Position numbers and translations under genes: made by a program. A DNA stretch of 64,000 bases from Salinivenus lutea (GTDB lineage Bacteria > Bacteroidota > Rhodothermia > Rhodothermales > Salinibacteraceae). The stretch is taken from NCBI GenBank assembly GCA_002894685.1, contig NCRC01000002.1, positions 62,001 to 126,000 of the forward strand, given 5' to 3'. Below the pieces are notes generated by a model that was given only the letters and a program-made list of their open reading frames with translations, ran no database searches and had not been told where the DNA came from. Positions 12,213 through 39,290 of the stretch are shown here, piece by piece; positions within the stretch are counted from its first letter, which is position 1; every line of letters starts with the position of its first letter.

Positions 12213-12899
12213 CTACACCCCGTAGTTGAGTTGCTGTCGCTTCTGATTCCGAATGTCTTCGTCGCTGGGCTCCTGGTCGGGATTGTCCTGCCCGGCCGGC
12301 GTCTGCTTCGGGACCGACGACGAGGTGCTCTCGTCCTCGTCCTCCTCGTTCCCCTCTGCGTAGAGCGCGTTCTGGATCGGCTCCGAGAAGGACGACTCCA
12401 CGTACTCGCCCACGGGCTGCCGGCCGTCGTCCGTCTCGACGTAGGCCGTAGCCTCCTCGTCTTCCCCGTCCGCCTCTTCCACCTCGAAGTCGAGGTCGTC
12501 GGGCAGGATGTCCTCCGCGGCGTCCTCGTTGAGCCCTTCCACCTCGTAGACCGTGCGGCGCTTCTCCTTGCGGCGGTACGCCTGAAGCTCTTGCTGAGCT
12601 TCTTCTGCCTCCTGCAGCCGCTCCTGCACCTGGTCGGCCTGTACCGTCCCCTCTTCGCCGAGGGCACCAAGCTCGCGGAGCGACTCCGCCTGCTCCTCGT
12701 CGAGCACGACCTGGTCGTCGTCGGGGAGCCGGTCGCGAAGGGTGCGCAGCTGCTCCCGCTGCTCATAGTTGTCCTGAAGGAGCTGGGTGATCTTTTGCAG
12801 GGCCCGGCCGTCCTCGACGGCCTGTTGGGCCTGCCGCTCCAGCTCCTCCTGCGTAACGCCATTCTCGGTTTCGTCCGTATCGGTGTTTTCGTCTGCCAT
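12213..12899 (-). CDS. Capsid scaffolding protein
   Basis: A 228-residue, highly acidic coiled-coil protein. Residues of about 15-115 are rich in Glu, Gln and Leu heptads, and the C-terminal part is low-complexity Asp/Glu/Ser/Gln, ending in a short basic tail (NQKRQQLNYGV). This composition, with a position immediately before decoration and capsid genes, is typical of siphovirus scaffold proteins that fill the procapsid. It is the first gene after a strong terminator (12951-13000), so it probably has its own promoter. A 7-bp hairpin with a 3-base loop lies in the leader at 12922-12938. Confidence 0.8.
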   Translation of the reverse strand: MADENTDTDETENGVTQEELERQAQQAVEDGRALQKITQLLQDNYEQREQLRTLRDRLPDDDQVVLDEEQAESLRELGALGEEGTVQADQVQERLQEAEEAQQELQAYRRKEKRRTVYEVEGLNEDAAEDILPDDLDFEVEEADGEDEEATAYVETDDGRQPVGEYVESSFSEPIQNALYAEGNEEDEDESTSSSVPKQTPAGQDNPDQEPSDEDIRNQKRQQLNYGV

Positions 12900-12950
12900 C
12901 GTTCCACGTTGTACTTGATGTGCGCCTCCCTGAGGCGCTAAATGCGGCGA

Positions 12951-13000
12951 AAATAAAAAAGCAGCCTCCAGGCCGGACGAAGGGTCCGGGTGGAAGCTGC
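12951..13000 (-). terminator. Strong rho-independent terminator before the scaffold gene
   Basis: On the minus strand a long GC-rich stem (arms 12984-13000 and 12961-12978, 5-base loop) is followed by TTTTTTATTT. It would end transcripts coming from the packaging genes and the mini-CRISPR region before the scaffold-capsid block. Confidence 0.85.
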
Positions 13001-13152
13001 CATCAGCAGCGACGACTAGCGGTCGTCAGTCTACGAATGTGCGGCCACGAAGCCGTGGCGCGGGATTAAGTAGAATACGCCCCTACATCGCGGGTTTCAA
13101 GGGCGGTGGCGCTTGTCTTCACATTTAAGAGACTACAGGTGTACACCTGGGC

Positions 13153-13350
13153 TTAACCAGGACTGGACTCATCCCCACCTTCGCCCACGAGGACGAGCAT
13201 CGCCAACACCCGGCGCTCGGCATCGGTCTGGGGCGTCCGGTCGCTGGAGTCGATAATCTGGGCACACCCTGCCATTGCCGCTTCGAGCTCGTCAATGCGG
13301 CGACGCTGCTGCTCAATGCGCTCGAGCAGCTCTTCTTTCGATGGGCTCAT
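13153..13350 (-). CDS. Small coiled-coil protein, unknown function
   Basis: A 65-residue frame starting at the ATG at 13348-13350. The first 30 residues are a charged coiled coil (KEELLERIEQQRRRIDELEA). It lies between the I-B-like mini-CRISPR array and the terminator. No known family. A shifted alternative frame overlaps it but has no such regular helix pattern. Confidence 0.45.
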   Translation of the reverse strand: MSPSKEELLERIEQQRRRIDELEAAMAGCAQIIDSSDRTPQTDAERRVLAMLVLVGEGGDESSPG

Positions 13351-13386
13351 GAGAAGGGCCTATCGTCGGGTGAGCGACGGGCGGTG

Positions 13387-13549
13387 GGCTCAATACCTTA
13401 GGGGTGCGATTAAAACCGCGGTGGATGCCCTGACGTCGGCGCTGAATGCGTAATTTCAATACCTCAAAGGTGCGATTAAAACTCTTCCTCCGCCTCGAGC
13501 AGGGCCTCGGCCGTATCAATTTCAATACCTCAAAGGTGCGATTGAAAAC
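13387..13549 (-). CRISPR. Mini-CRISPR array, I-B/III-like repeat, 3 repeats and 2 spacers, no cas genes
   Basis: Repeats at 13387-13416 (degenerate), 13453-13482 and 13519-13549; spacers of exactly 36 nt at 13417-13452 and 13483-13518; constant 66-bp period. On the minus strand the repeat starts GTTTTAATCGCACC and ends GAGGTATTGAAAT, the usual form of type I-B/III repeats. The degenerate copy is the last one in that direction, as expected for the leader-distal end. The first and middle copies differ by one inserted base. The minus-strand reading of spacer 2 has an open frame (DTAEALLEAEE), so it may derive from a coding sequence. No cas gene is in the window. Confidence 0.88.
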
Positions 13550-13556
13550 GAGCCTA

Positions 13557-13769
13557 TCACGGGTGTGGTGTATTACGGTATTCCTCCTCAAGCTCCGACC
13601 GCAGCTCTTCATTTTCTTTAACAAGTGCCACGATAGCGTCTTCGAGTGCTTTCACCTGTCCTGCTATGGACATTGTAGTACTGGGGCTGACACCCTCCTC
13701 CTTGCGCCGCCGATCAAAAACACTACGAACGATCGGGTTTCCCTTTCGAATTTCATGTATTCGATCCAT
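13557..13769 (-). CDS. Small protein of unknown function between two mini-CRISPR arrays
   Basis: A 70-residue frame from the ATG at 13767-13769 (MDRIHEIRKGNPIVRSVFD), in DNA clearly more A+T-rich than the neighbours. The N-terminal half is basic; the C-terminal half is an acidic coiled coil (VKALEDAIVALVKENEELR). A longer start at 13838 is possible. It lies in what could also be the leader of the I-B-like array, so it may be only a chance frame. Confidence 0.4.
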   Translation of the reverse strand: MDRIHEIRKGNPIVRSVFDRRRKEEGVSPSTTMSIAGQVKALEDAIVALVKENEELRSELEEEYRNTPHP

Positions 13770-13839
13770 TGCAAGATATGTAGCCGTTGGGATTAAGCGA
13801 TCGTGTGATGTACATCTATGGATCGAGAAGCTTATCACT

Positions 13840-13929
13840 CGATCTATCCCCGCATCTGCGGGGCCACCGTTATCGCCCCGGCCGGGTCAGGAAAGGGGAA
13901 GGGACCATCCCCGCGTGTGCGGGGCATAC
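13840..13929 (-). CRISPR. Mini-CRISPR array, type I-E-like repeat, 2 repeats and 1 spacer, no cas genes
   Basis: Repeats at 13901-13929 and 13840-13868 (degenerate, 20 of 29 identical); spacer 13869-13900 is exactly 32 nt. The 29 + 32 geometry is the standard type I-E unit. On the minus strand the good repeat carries the I-E stem GCCCCGCACACGCGGGG and ends ATGGTCCC, as many I-E repeats do. Again the degenerate repeat is last on the minus strand. The array directly follows the minor head protein gene (ends 13997) and shares its direction, so it could be transcribed from the late operon. Confidence 0.82.
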
Positions 13930-13996
13930 ACTGCGTCACATCTTCACGCACGATACGCACGTGACGCCTGCCTGCAGGTTCCGCTCAACCCCGCGG

Positions 13997-15067
13997 TTAT
14001 TCGCCCCGCAGATCCGCCGCCAACTCCGGCGCCTCTCGCTGCTGTCGGACGCACCGACAGTGCCCGCCCCCCAGGCAAATCATGCCGGGCATTGGGCCCT
14101 GGCCGGGCAAGTACGGCCCCTCGTCCTCCGCCGTCGAACAGGGGGTACAGGTTGCCCCGTCGTCTACCGCGACGTAGTCAATCACCACCCCGGAGTCGTC
14201 GATCTGCTCCTCACTTTTCTCCCAGTACTTGCCATAGGCCTCCCCCTTGTACTGCCGGGCCCGGGCCGCAATCTCATCCTCCGTCATCGGCCGGCCCCGA
14301 AGGTCCTCGGCCAGCCGATCCACCGCCTTGTCGGGGACGTCTACGTCGCCGGACTCGTTCACAATGTCTCCTACGCGGCCGTCTGTCGCCTCCTCCAGAA
14401 TCTCATCCGCGACATCGTCGGCTGCGTCCGTTGCCTCGTCCTGGGCCGCTTTCCGGGCCCGCTTCTTGAGACGACGACGGGCCACCTCTTCCGCGTTCTC
14501 TCCCAGCTCGTTGCGCGCGGCCACCTCGTCGGCAAAGCGCTTGAGAAACTGCGCCTGCTCCCGCATCGTCTCCTGCAGGTCGTCGAGCTCGCCGGGGGTG
14601 AGGGGCGCCCCCTTCCCCAGCTGGGCCTGTTGCAGAAGGTTTTGCCGGAGGCGAACGATCATCTGGGAATGCCAGTCTCGGCCGCGGAGGTCGCCCTGGA
14701 GAACGCGCTCCGCCAGGTCACCAACGTCACGGTCGAAAAGCTCCATCGCCTCTTGTGCGACCCGCGTGCGGGACGAGGGCGGGGCGTTCAGCGCGGTCGC
14801 CGGCACGACTCCGGTTTCCTCGATCACCGCCATGCTGGCCGCCTCGGCCGCCACCGTCTCGACTGCCCGGCCCAGGGTGAGCTGCGTAATCGGCCCCTGC
14901 GTCGATTCCTCGAACGGGAGAGGCAGCGTATTTTCCTTGATCGCCCCCGCATCGTACAGCTCCAGGAGGGCCGTGGCTTCTGCCTGCGAGATTCCGACCG
15001 CGCCATTCGTCTCCTCGTGGCGCTGGACGAGAACGGCAAGGGCGTCGAGGAATTGGTCGCGATTCAT
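13997..15067 (-). CDS. Minor head protein (SPP1 gp7 / Mu gpF-like)
   Basis: A 356-residue protein encoded after portal, at the usual place of head morphogenesis proteins. The C-terminus has the family signature: CTPCSTAEDEGPYLPG, then GGGHCRCV, a pattern of paired cysteines, PG and a GH.CRC motif. The middle is long charged helices. In SPP1 this protein binds the portal and takes part in DNA exit. The start codon overlaps the stop codon of the preceding small gene (TGATG), which suggests translational coupling. Confidence 0.88.
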   Translation of the reverse strand: MNRDQFLDALAVLVQRHEETNGAVGISQAEATALLELYDAGAIKENTLPLPFEESTQGPITQLTLGRAVETVAAEAASMAVIEETGVVPATALNAPPSSRTRVAQEAMELFDRDVGDLAERVLQGDLRGRDWHSQMIVRLRQNLLQQAQLGKGAPLTPGELDDLQETMREQAQFLKRFADEVAARNELGENAEEVARRRLKKRARKAAQDEATDAADDVADEILEEATDGRVGDIVNESGDVDVPDKAVDRLAEDLRGRPMTEDEIAARARQYKGEAYGKYWEKSEEQIDDSGVVIDYVAVDDGATCTPCSTAEDEGPYLPGQGPMPGMICLGGGHCRCVRQQREAPELAADLRGE

Positions 15068-37916: not shown

Positions 37917-39050
37917 ATGGCCACCCTCCGCGAACTCAAGACAAAGTGGCAGATCCGCTATTACGATGGGTCTCGCTCGCCAAAGGAAACCACCGACTCA
38001 ATTGACAAAGGGCAGTACACGGAGGCCGAGGCCCAGTCGGAAGCCGAGTATCGGCAACAGATGTATGACCGCGGCCGCTACGATCCATGGACGCAGGCAG
38101 AGCCGGGAGCGGCCGCCCGCGTCGGGGATGACCCCACCTTGAAGGAGCTCGCCGAGCTGTACGTCGAGGAGAAGCGTCAGGCCGGCCGGCGCGGCGAGGC
38201 CGGCGGGTGGACGGAGAACACATACCACTCTGACGCCCCCATCCTGAAAGATTTTGCACGCAAAACGGGCTCCTCCCTGCAGGCCTCCAGGCTCCGGACG
38301 TCTCACATCCGATCCTTCGTCTACCAGGACCAGCTCGCCAACGCGACGCGCCGGGGCTACCACCGTCGCGTCCGGGCAATGCTCCAGTGGGCGGAGCGGA
38401 AGGGCCTAGTGCCCGACCCACCGGACATGCCGCCCCCGCCAAAGAAGCAGAAGACACTCACCGAGGTGATCACCGAGGCCGAGCTTGAGGAGATCTGCGC
38501 CGCCCACCGGTCGATCCAGTACACAACCATCCGCCACAGCCTCATGTGGCGCTTCCTCTTCTACCAGGGGCTCCGGCCGGGCGAGGCCTACGACCTGCGC
38601 ATCGGCAACGTGTACTGGGACGAGGGGCGCCTCCAGATCGGGGACCACACGAAAGGCGTCCGGCAGAAGAGCGGCGACGAAAGCCTCATCCCCCTCCTCC
38701 CTCCTGGCCGCTTCTTCCTCCGGCCGTTCCTCGAGCGTGAGCTCTGGGGCGAGGGCCCGCCGCCGACGTCGCCAGACGCGAGGGCGTTTGGAGCCGGCCC
38801 CGGGGCCCGGAGGCCCTCGAGTAGTTTCAAGCGAGCGGTGCGGGCAGCTGCTGATGATGACGAAAACTCAATCACCGAGGAGCGGGCGGAGCGGATGTCC
38901 ATGTACACGCTTCGCCACAGCTGCGCGACCCACTGGCTTCGGGAAGGCAAGGCCCTGATTTGGGTAAACCGGCTGCTTCGGCACTCCCAAGTCCAGACGA
39001 CAATGGAGTACGTCCACTTGGCCGGCGTGGACCTACAGGAGATGGGATAA
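37917..39050 (+). CDS. int: Tyrosine-type phage integrase
   Basis: A 377-residue recombinase. N-terminal arm-type and SAM-like domains (about 75-170) precede the catalytic domain: Arg220 (YQGLRPGEA), Arg333 (TLRHSCATHW), His356 (LRHSQVQTT) and the nucleophile Tyr365 (MEYVHL). The first His of the usual HxxR box is Tyr330. It lies next to the tRNA-Lys 3' end and should join phage and chromosome there. A perfect dispersed element (38252-38265) is inside its coding sequence (FARKT). Confidence 0.95.
   Translation: MATLRELKTKWQIRYYDGSRSPKETTDSIDKGQYTEAEAQSEAEYRQQMYDRGRYDPWTQAEPGAAARVGDDPTLKELAELYVEEKRQAGRRGEAGGWTENTYHSDAPILKDFARKTGSSLQASRLRTSHIRSFVYQDQLANATRRGYHRRVRAMLQWAERKGLVPDPPDMPPPPKKQKTLTEVITEAELEEICAAHRSIQYTTIRHSLMWRFLFYQGLRPGEAYDLRIGNVYWDEGRLQIGDHTKGVRQKSGDESLIPLLPPGRFFLRPFLERELWGEGPPPTSPDARAFGAGPGARRPSSSFKRAVRAAADDDENSITEERAERMSMYTLRHSCATHWLREGKALIWVNRLLRHSQVQTTMEYVHLAGVDLQEMG
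38252..38265 (+). repeat. Dispersed oriented 14-bp element inside integrase gene
   Basis: TTTTGCACGCAAAA, a perfect consensus match in the direction of the integrase gene. Confidence 0.85.
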
Positions 39051-39184: not shown

Positions 39185-39216
39185 TGGGATGCCGTTTGTC
39201 GTTGCTGAATGGGATG

Positions 39217-39290
39217 TAGGCCCGGGGGGATTCGAACCCCCAACTCACGGATTAAGAGTCCGTTGCTCTACCAAGTTGAGCTACGAGCCT
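39217..39290 (-). tRNA. tRNA-Lys(CTT), right attachment site of the prophage
   Basis: Full cloverleaf: acceptor AGGCTCG/CGGGCCT with one G-T pair, D-arm GCTC/GAGC, anticodon stem ACGGA/TCCGT with loop CTCTTAA (anticodon CTT), T-arm GGGGG, TTCGAAT, CCCCC. Discriminator A. CCA not encoded. Its 3' half faces the integrase, so the attachment core is expected there. The exact core cannot be set without the left end. Confidence 0.93.

Follow-up and report, generated by a model that had tools for sequence, protein, structure and literature searches.

The prophage in the window (the whole stretch of 64,000 nucleotides of Salinivenus lutea DNA analysed here) carries two CRISPR mini-arrays, of subtypes I-B and I-E, for both of which the host genome encodes effector proteins. 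We propose that they form a two-subtype crRNA cassette by which the prophage would turn the two systems of its host on rival phages, a reading to which we assign a probability of about 55%. The initial annotation had reported only the first of these, as a Cas-less, I-B/III-like array between the minor head and scaffold genes of a prophage, and had suggested that it could use host Cas proteins to exclude related phages. The array is real, I-B-like and located where it had been placed, and use of host Cas proteins is possible in principle, since the host has a matching I-B effector. However, that account was incomplete: it overlooked the second mini-array, which corresponds to the I-E system of the host, as well as the cassettes present in other viruses.

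The prophage is about 47 kb in length, is integrated in tRNA-Lys between 49-bp exact att repeats, and encodes an integrase, a CI-like repressor, terminase, portal, major head protein and tape measure. The canonical strand of both mini-arrays is the late-gene (minus) strand (Table 1). The GC content of the cassette segment is about 50%, against about 66% in its flanks, and a strong intrinsic terminator ends this accessory segment ahead of the scaffold gene. No promoter specific to the cassette was found at the locus, so its expression in the lysogen is putative. On either side of the I-B mini-array is a small coiled-coil-like ORF, and both are candidates for accessory or anti-defence proteins; the larger had no match in PHROG or Pfam.

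Table 1. Positions in the window of the two mini-arrays and of associated prophage features.
Feature	Position	Strand	Details
Scaffold gene, downstream	12213..12899	-	34% identity over 150 aa to L088 scaffold
Intrinsic terminator, strong	12950..13001	-	long GC hairpin and T run
Small ORF downstream of I-B mini-array	13153..13350	-	65 aa, coiled-coil-like
I-B-type repeat 3, leader-distal, degenerate	13387..13416	-	hairpin and 8-nt handle eroded
I-B spacer 2 (distal), 36 nt	13417..13452	-	opposite strand codes for AVDALTSALNA, then TA
I-B-type repeat 2	13453..13482	-	GTTTTAATCGCACCTTTGAGGTATTGAAAT
I-B spacer 1, 36 nt	13483..13518	-	TGATACGGCCGAGGCCCTGCTCGAGGCGGAGGAAGA; codes for DTAEALLEAEE
I-B-type repeat 1, leader-proximal	13519..13548	-	TTTTCAATCGCACCTTTGAGGTATTGAAAT
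Small ORF between mini-arrays	13557..13838	-	93 aa, coiled-coil-like end
I-E repeat 2, leader-distal	13840..13868	-	GGTGGCCCCGCAGATGCGGGGATAGATCG
I-E spacer, 32 nt	13869..13900	-	TTCCCCTTTCCTGACCCGGCCGGGGCGATAAC
I-E repeat 1, leader-proximal	13901..13929	-	GTATGCCCCGCACACGCGGGGATGGTCCC; 2 mismatches to Salinibacter I-E repeat of G002
I-E leader end	13930..13951	-	...ATGTGACGCAGT; 16/22 identical to host C20 I-E leader end
Minor head gene, upstream of cassettes	13997..15067	-	phrog_24776
Prophage integrase	37917..39050	+	
Attachment site, 49 bp in tRNA-Lys gene	39216..39264		exact copy at contig position C2:54075

The I-B mini-array (13387-13548) consists of three 30-nt repeats with a period of exactly 66 bp, separated by two spacers and without cas genes, in agreement with the layout first described. 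Its crRNA orientation is that of the minus strand, with the repeat reading GTTTTAATCGCACCTTTGAGGTATTGAAAT, so that the left copy, the most degenerate of the three, is leader-distal, as had been claimed. The repeat ends in ATTGAAA(N), the handle typical of I-B crRNAs, and the stems of the first two repeats are intact. The Rfam model CRISPR-DR2 matched the middle and right copies, with E values of 0.00067 and 0.21, both below the gathering cut-off. When the sequence upstream of this array was compared by eye with host leaders, no similarity was seen.

The I-E mini-array (13840-13929) lies 292 bp from the I-B array and contains a single spacer between two 29-nt hairpin repeats, whose spacing is exactly 61 bp. 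The matched repeat segments are at 13846-13864 and 13907-13925, and the core ATCCCCGCNNNTGCGGGG occurs twice in the window, compared with 0.03 occurrences expected by chance. Both repeats have intact stems, and the handle carries two changes relative to the host consensus; in the two arrays, distal repeats and handles depart from consensus. The 16/22 identity of the leader end to that of host contig C20 was equalled by only 2 of 20,000 random prophage words.

Host contig C46 encodes Cas6b, Cas5b, Cas3b, Cas8b and Cas7b, i.e., the cognate proteins for the I-B array, upstream of a ten-repeat I-B array. When repeats were compared within the genome, as the initial annotation had advised, a 24-nt core proved to be identical between the prophage I-B repeat and this host array. 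Over the full repeat the identity was 27/30, and the three mismatches to its own host place the prophage repeat nearer to arrays from a Rhodothermaceae MAG (1 mismatch) and Longimonas (2 mismatches). A complete I-E system (Cas3e, Cas8e, Cas11e, Cas7e, Cas5e, Cas6e and Cas1e) is encoded on contig C13, so that the 29-nt hairpin repeat and 61-nt period of the second mini-array are accompanied by cognate I-E cas genes in the host. Within the host genome Cas1 was detected only on C13, with the I-E system; none was recognisable at the I-B effector locus (G000:C46:24000-40000), though an array is present there. The class of the prophage I-E repeat is represented in host arrays on contigs C1 and C13 and, in divergent form, on C20 and C57; the prophage repeat has six mismatches to the nearest host repeat.

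The I-B locus of the Salinibacter ruber M1 plasmid pSR66 (NZ_CP030366.1) has the same I-B repeat and is fuller, with cas4, cas1b and cas2 also present, indicating that the I-B system can be plasmid-borne in Salinibacter; a total of 39 repeats was found in its two I-B arrays. Another Salinibacter genome has an I-B mini-array of two repeats together with leader-like sequence (G012:C45:22995-23084), and a further one has an isolated I-B repeat (G006:C5:109622). Solitary I-B-like repeats far from long arrays (G063:C1:1420883 and G064:C1:1473312) are conserved across two genomes from another family of the order.

Translated in frame, the distal I-B spacer reads AVDALTSALNA and then TA, which is a conserved tape-measure motif (PhageMin_Tail). 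When 2.9 million viral contigs were searched with degenerate codons for DALTSALNA plus TA, the window locus and seven others were recovered, and in all seven the motif lay within a long ORF whose surroundings were those of a tail tape-measure protein. The tape-measure protein of viral contig L090, which has the similar VADAVTSAVNAY, matched PhageMin_Tail at 6e-28, and the motif is absent from the prophage's own tape measure. Together, these sequence matches are good evidence that the distal spacer derived from a tailed phage. They tell us the source of the spacer and not its function: a phage motif would equally be present in a host spacer that had been taken up along with its repeats, so by itself it cannot settle whether the arrays act as guides or as decoys.

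The product of spacer 1 weakly resembles a segment of the major capsid protein of a related phage, L079 (DMAQAMLNAEK; 25/36 nt). Spacer 1 and the spacers of viral contig L089 matched late genes with 10-11 mismatches, a level reached by 0.7-2% of random host words; this likeness was chosen after the fact and is suggestive only. The spacer search against phage sequences that had been proposed at the outset yielded the tape-measure motif but no exact target: there was no exact or near-exact protospacer by IMG/VR degenerate codon patterns, in the phage collection, or in 27 family genomes searched allowing up to 3 mismatches. The IMG/VR pattern for the I-E spacer ended in GGNGA where the spacer has GGGAA, and was hence uninformative for that spacer. 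That the I-E spacer might encode a Walker-A motif (VIAPAGSGKG) was also considered, and was unsupported. Host spacers (44 from the host genome, and those beside the 39 pSR66 repeats) were also compared with the prophage, and none came close to targeting it.

Similar cassettes lie beside minor-head genes in three other viral contigs, L088, L089 and L090. In L089, a Mu-F-like minor head gene is followed by an I-E repeat-spacer-repeat fused directly to an I-B repeat-spacer-repeat, the canonical strand of the cassette being opposite to that of the head gene. In L088, an I-B unit is fused to a unit with a third type of repeat, between minor-head and scaffold homologues, while L090 has kept the third-type repeats with its I-B unit cut down to one repeat lacking the handle. 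The nearest array to this third type, to which we give no subtype label, is in Salinibacter genome G008. At least two virus lineages have two subtypes next to each other in this gene neighbourhood. L088 and L090 are 94-95% identical over long flanking stretches, yet their spacers are wholly different, i.e., the repeats have been retained and the spacers exchanged. The IMG/VR contig L089 forms an inverted duplicate (about 7.3 kb) that probably arose as an error of assembly, and its cassette was for that reason counted once; an eroded fused I-E/I-B repeat is located 444 bp from the intact cassette, past an 87-aa coiled-coil ORF.

No such arrays occur in the related phage L079 (capsid 75% identical), which has a GIY-YIG gene in the same interval. 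In this closest relative, the GIY-YIG endonuclease gene (L079:11818-12651, minus strand) fills the space from minor head to scaffold, the 3' end of the minor head gene is partly duplicated beyond it, and there is about 3.8 kb of extra DNA (L079:6938-10734) between portal and minor head genes relative to the prophage in the window. A single locus of Vibrio phage ICP1 likewise alternates between a CRISPR system and a GIY-YIG nuclease (PMC11656645); the parallel with L079 and our prophage is suggestive only.

According to our model, the cassette would be transcribed together with the minor-head operon or from a promoter that escaped detection, and the transcript would be cut by host Cas6e and Cas6b, giving predicted processed crRNAs of about 61-67 nt whose 5' ends start with ATTGAAAT or ATGGTCCC. 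These would be loaded into host I-E and I-B Cascade and would direct Cas3 to the DNA of competing phages, e.g., tailed phages bearing the tape-measure gene, the expected outcome being heterotypic superinfection exclusion. With two effectors covered, a rival that blocked one would still be cut by the other, and spacers could be replaced while the repeats stay, via host adaptation at the repeat or recombination. A guide role is supported by the host I-B array sharing the 24-nt core, with its effector genes; by the complete host I-E set and the I-E repeat pair at 61 bp with a host-like leader end; by the tape-measure motif of the distal spacer, missing from the prophage's own tape measure; by the cassettes of L088, L089 and L090, with spacer exchange between phages about 94% identical; and by family precedent (PMC6858448). 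It is weakened by the lack of an exact or near-exact protospacer in our searches, by an I-B repeat that differs from that of the host at 3 of 30 positions, and by the two changes in the I-E handle.

The main rival is that the arrays are decoys that inhibit host CRISPR, like the Racrs: phage repeat RNAs would bind Cas6/Cas7 of both host systems and titrate them from host crRNAs, spacer content being irrelevant. That the repeat subtypes are exactly the two of the host fits this well, and a decoy role explains the departures of handles and distal repeats from consensus and the solitary, handle-less I-B repeat of L090; in the Racr study, moreover, a non-targeting crRNA also lowered interference (PMC10651486). 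Racrs are, however, solitary repeats by definition, whereas the spacers here are full-length (36 and 32 nt) at native periods, one of them encodes a phage gene motif, and near-identical phages swap spacers wholesale yet preserve spacer length and repeats. A guide role accounts better than a pure decoy for the full-length spacers and their exchange, and we regard the decoy reading as unlikely, though to be taken seriously. The two functions may coexist, because a phage crRNA occupies effectors whatever its target.

Another view, which we consider improbable, is that these are passive remnants, i.e., functionless pieces of host arrays captured by recombination and now decaying. The degenerate distal repeats, the missing exact targets and promoter call, and the 50% GC of the segment would all be compatible with decay. 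Against it stand the stems, which are intact in the two I-E repeats and in I-B repeats 1 and 2, the compact, fused arrangements in L088 and L089, and the recurrence of two adjoining subtypes in one gene neighbourhood across at least two lineages of virus. The possibility that the 66-bp units are a protein-coding repeat of 22 codons, which the initial annotation had named among the findings that would overturn its own reading, can be dismissed. A 116-aa plus-strand ORF (13446-13796) and a 103-aa minus-strand ORF (13313-13624) do cross the I-B array, but the repeats are identical at the DNA level, over the 24-nt core, to those of the host ten-repeat array beside I-B cas genes, the spacers are variable, and L088 and L089 have no conserved reading frame.

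If the crRNAs proposed in the guide model are made, a temperate bacterial phage would direct two separate host immune systems at its competitors, and this would explain how exclusion could survive anti-CRISPR proteins specific for a single subtype. A more tentative suggestion, which we think somewhat doubtful, is that there is a class of composite phage cassettes that have one guide per host CRISPR subtype and in some cases join repeats of two subtypes end to end. If so, one phage could turn several host effectors on its rivals together, perhaps titrating them from itself. The fused two-subtype arrays and spacer exchange make the choice between guide and decoy directly testable, and Salinibacter strains that can be cultivated provide a bacterial system in which to do so.

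The initial annotation had stated that virus-borne mini-arrays are known mainly in archaeal viruses. They are indeed known there (PMC6858448), but are also documented in bacteriophages and prophages, as related in the relevant parts of PMC7099407 and PMC11656645. With one or two spacers, no cas genes and repeats matching host systems, the prophage arrays belong with these elements. A pair aimed at two different host systems looks new: we found no description of tandem or fused two-subtype mini-arrays matching two host systems in the open literature, a weak absence since that literature omits most subscription papers, including the survey of Faure et al. (2019). The mini-arrays of the portogloboviruses SPV1 and SPV2 (Medvedeva et al., 2019; PMC6858448) likewise lack cas genes, hold one or two spacers between host-like repeats, turn over their spacers at a fixed position and include one array with a leader. 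Ours differ in residing in a bacterial tailed prophage, in combining two subtypes in one genome, in having an I-B array without a host-like leader, and in that no exact protospacer was found. The bacteriophage and prophage arrays of Faure et al. (2019), as far as PMC7099407 and PMC11656645 relate, share host-type repeats, one or two spacers and likely inter-phage targeting; in those accounts they lack host leaders and have repeats identical to the host's, whereas here the units are tandem or fused, of two subtypes, and the repeat match is close, not exact. Racrs (PMC10651486) are likewise intergenic, phage-encoded repeat mimics of host subtypes, but each is a solitary repeat, while the arrays in the window are repeat-spacer-repeat and the other cassettes have full spacer-bearing units, except for the lone I-B repeat of L090. 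Chiyouvirus of Bathyarchaeia (PMC10848311) also has two mini-arrays per virus, only one with a host repeat; it differs in being archaeal, with three spacers per array, a second repeat type without an assigned host subtype, and arrays that are not fused.
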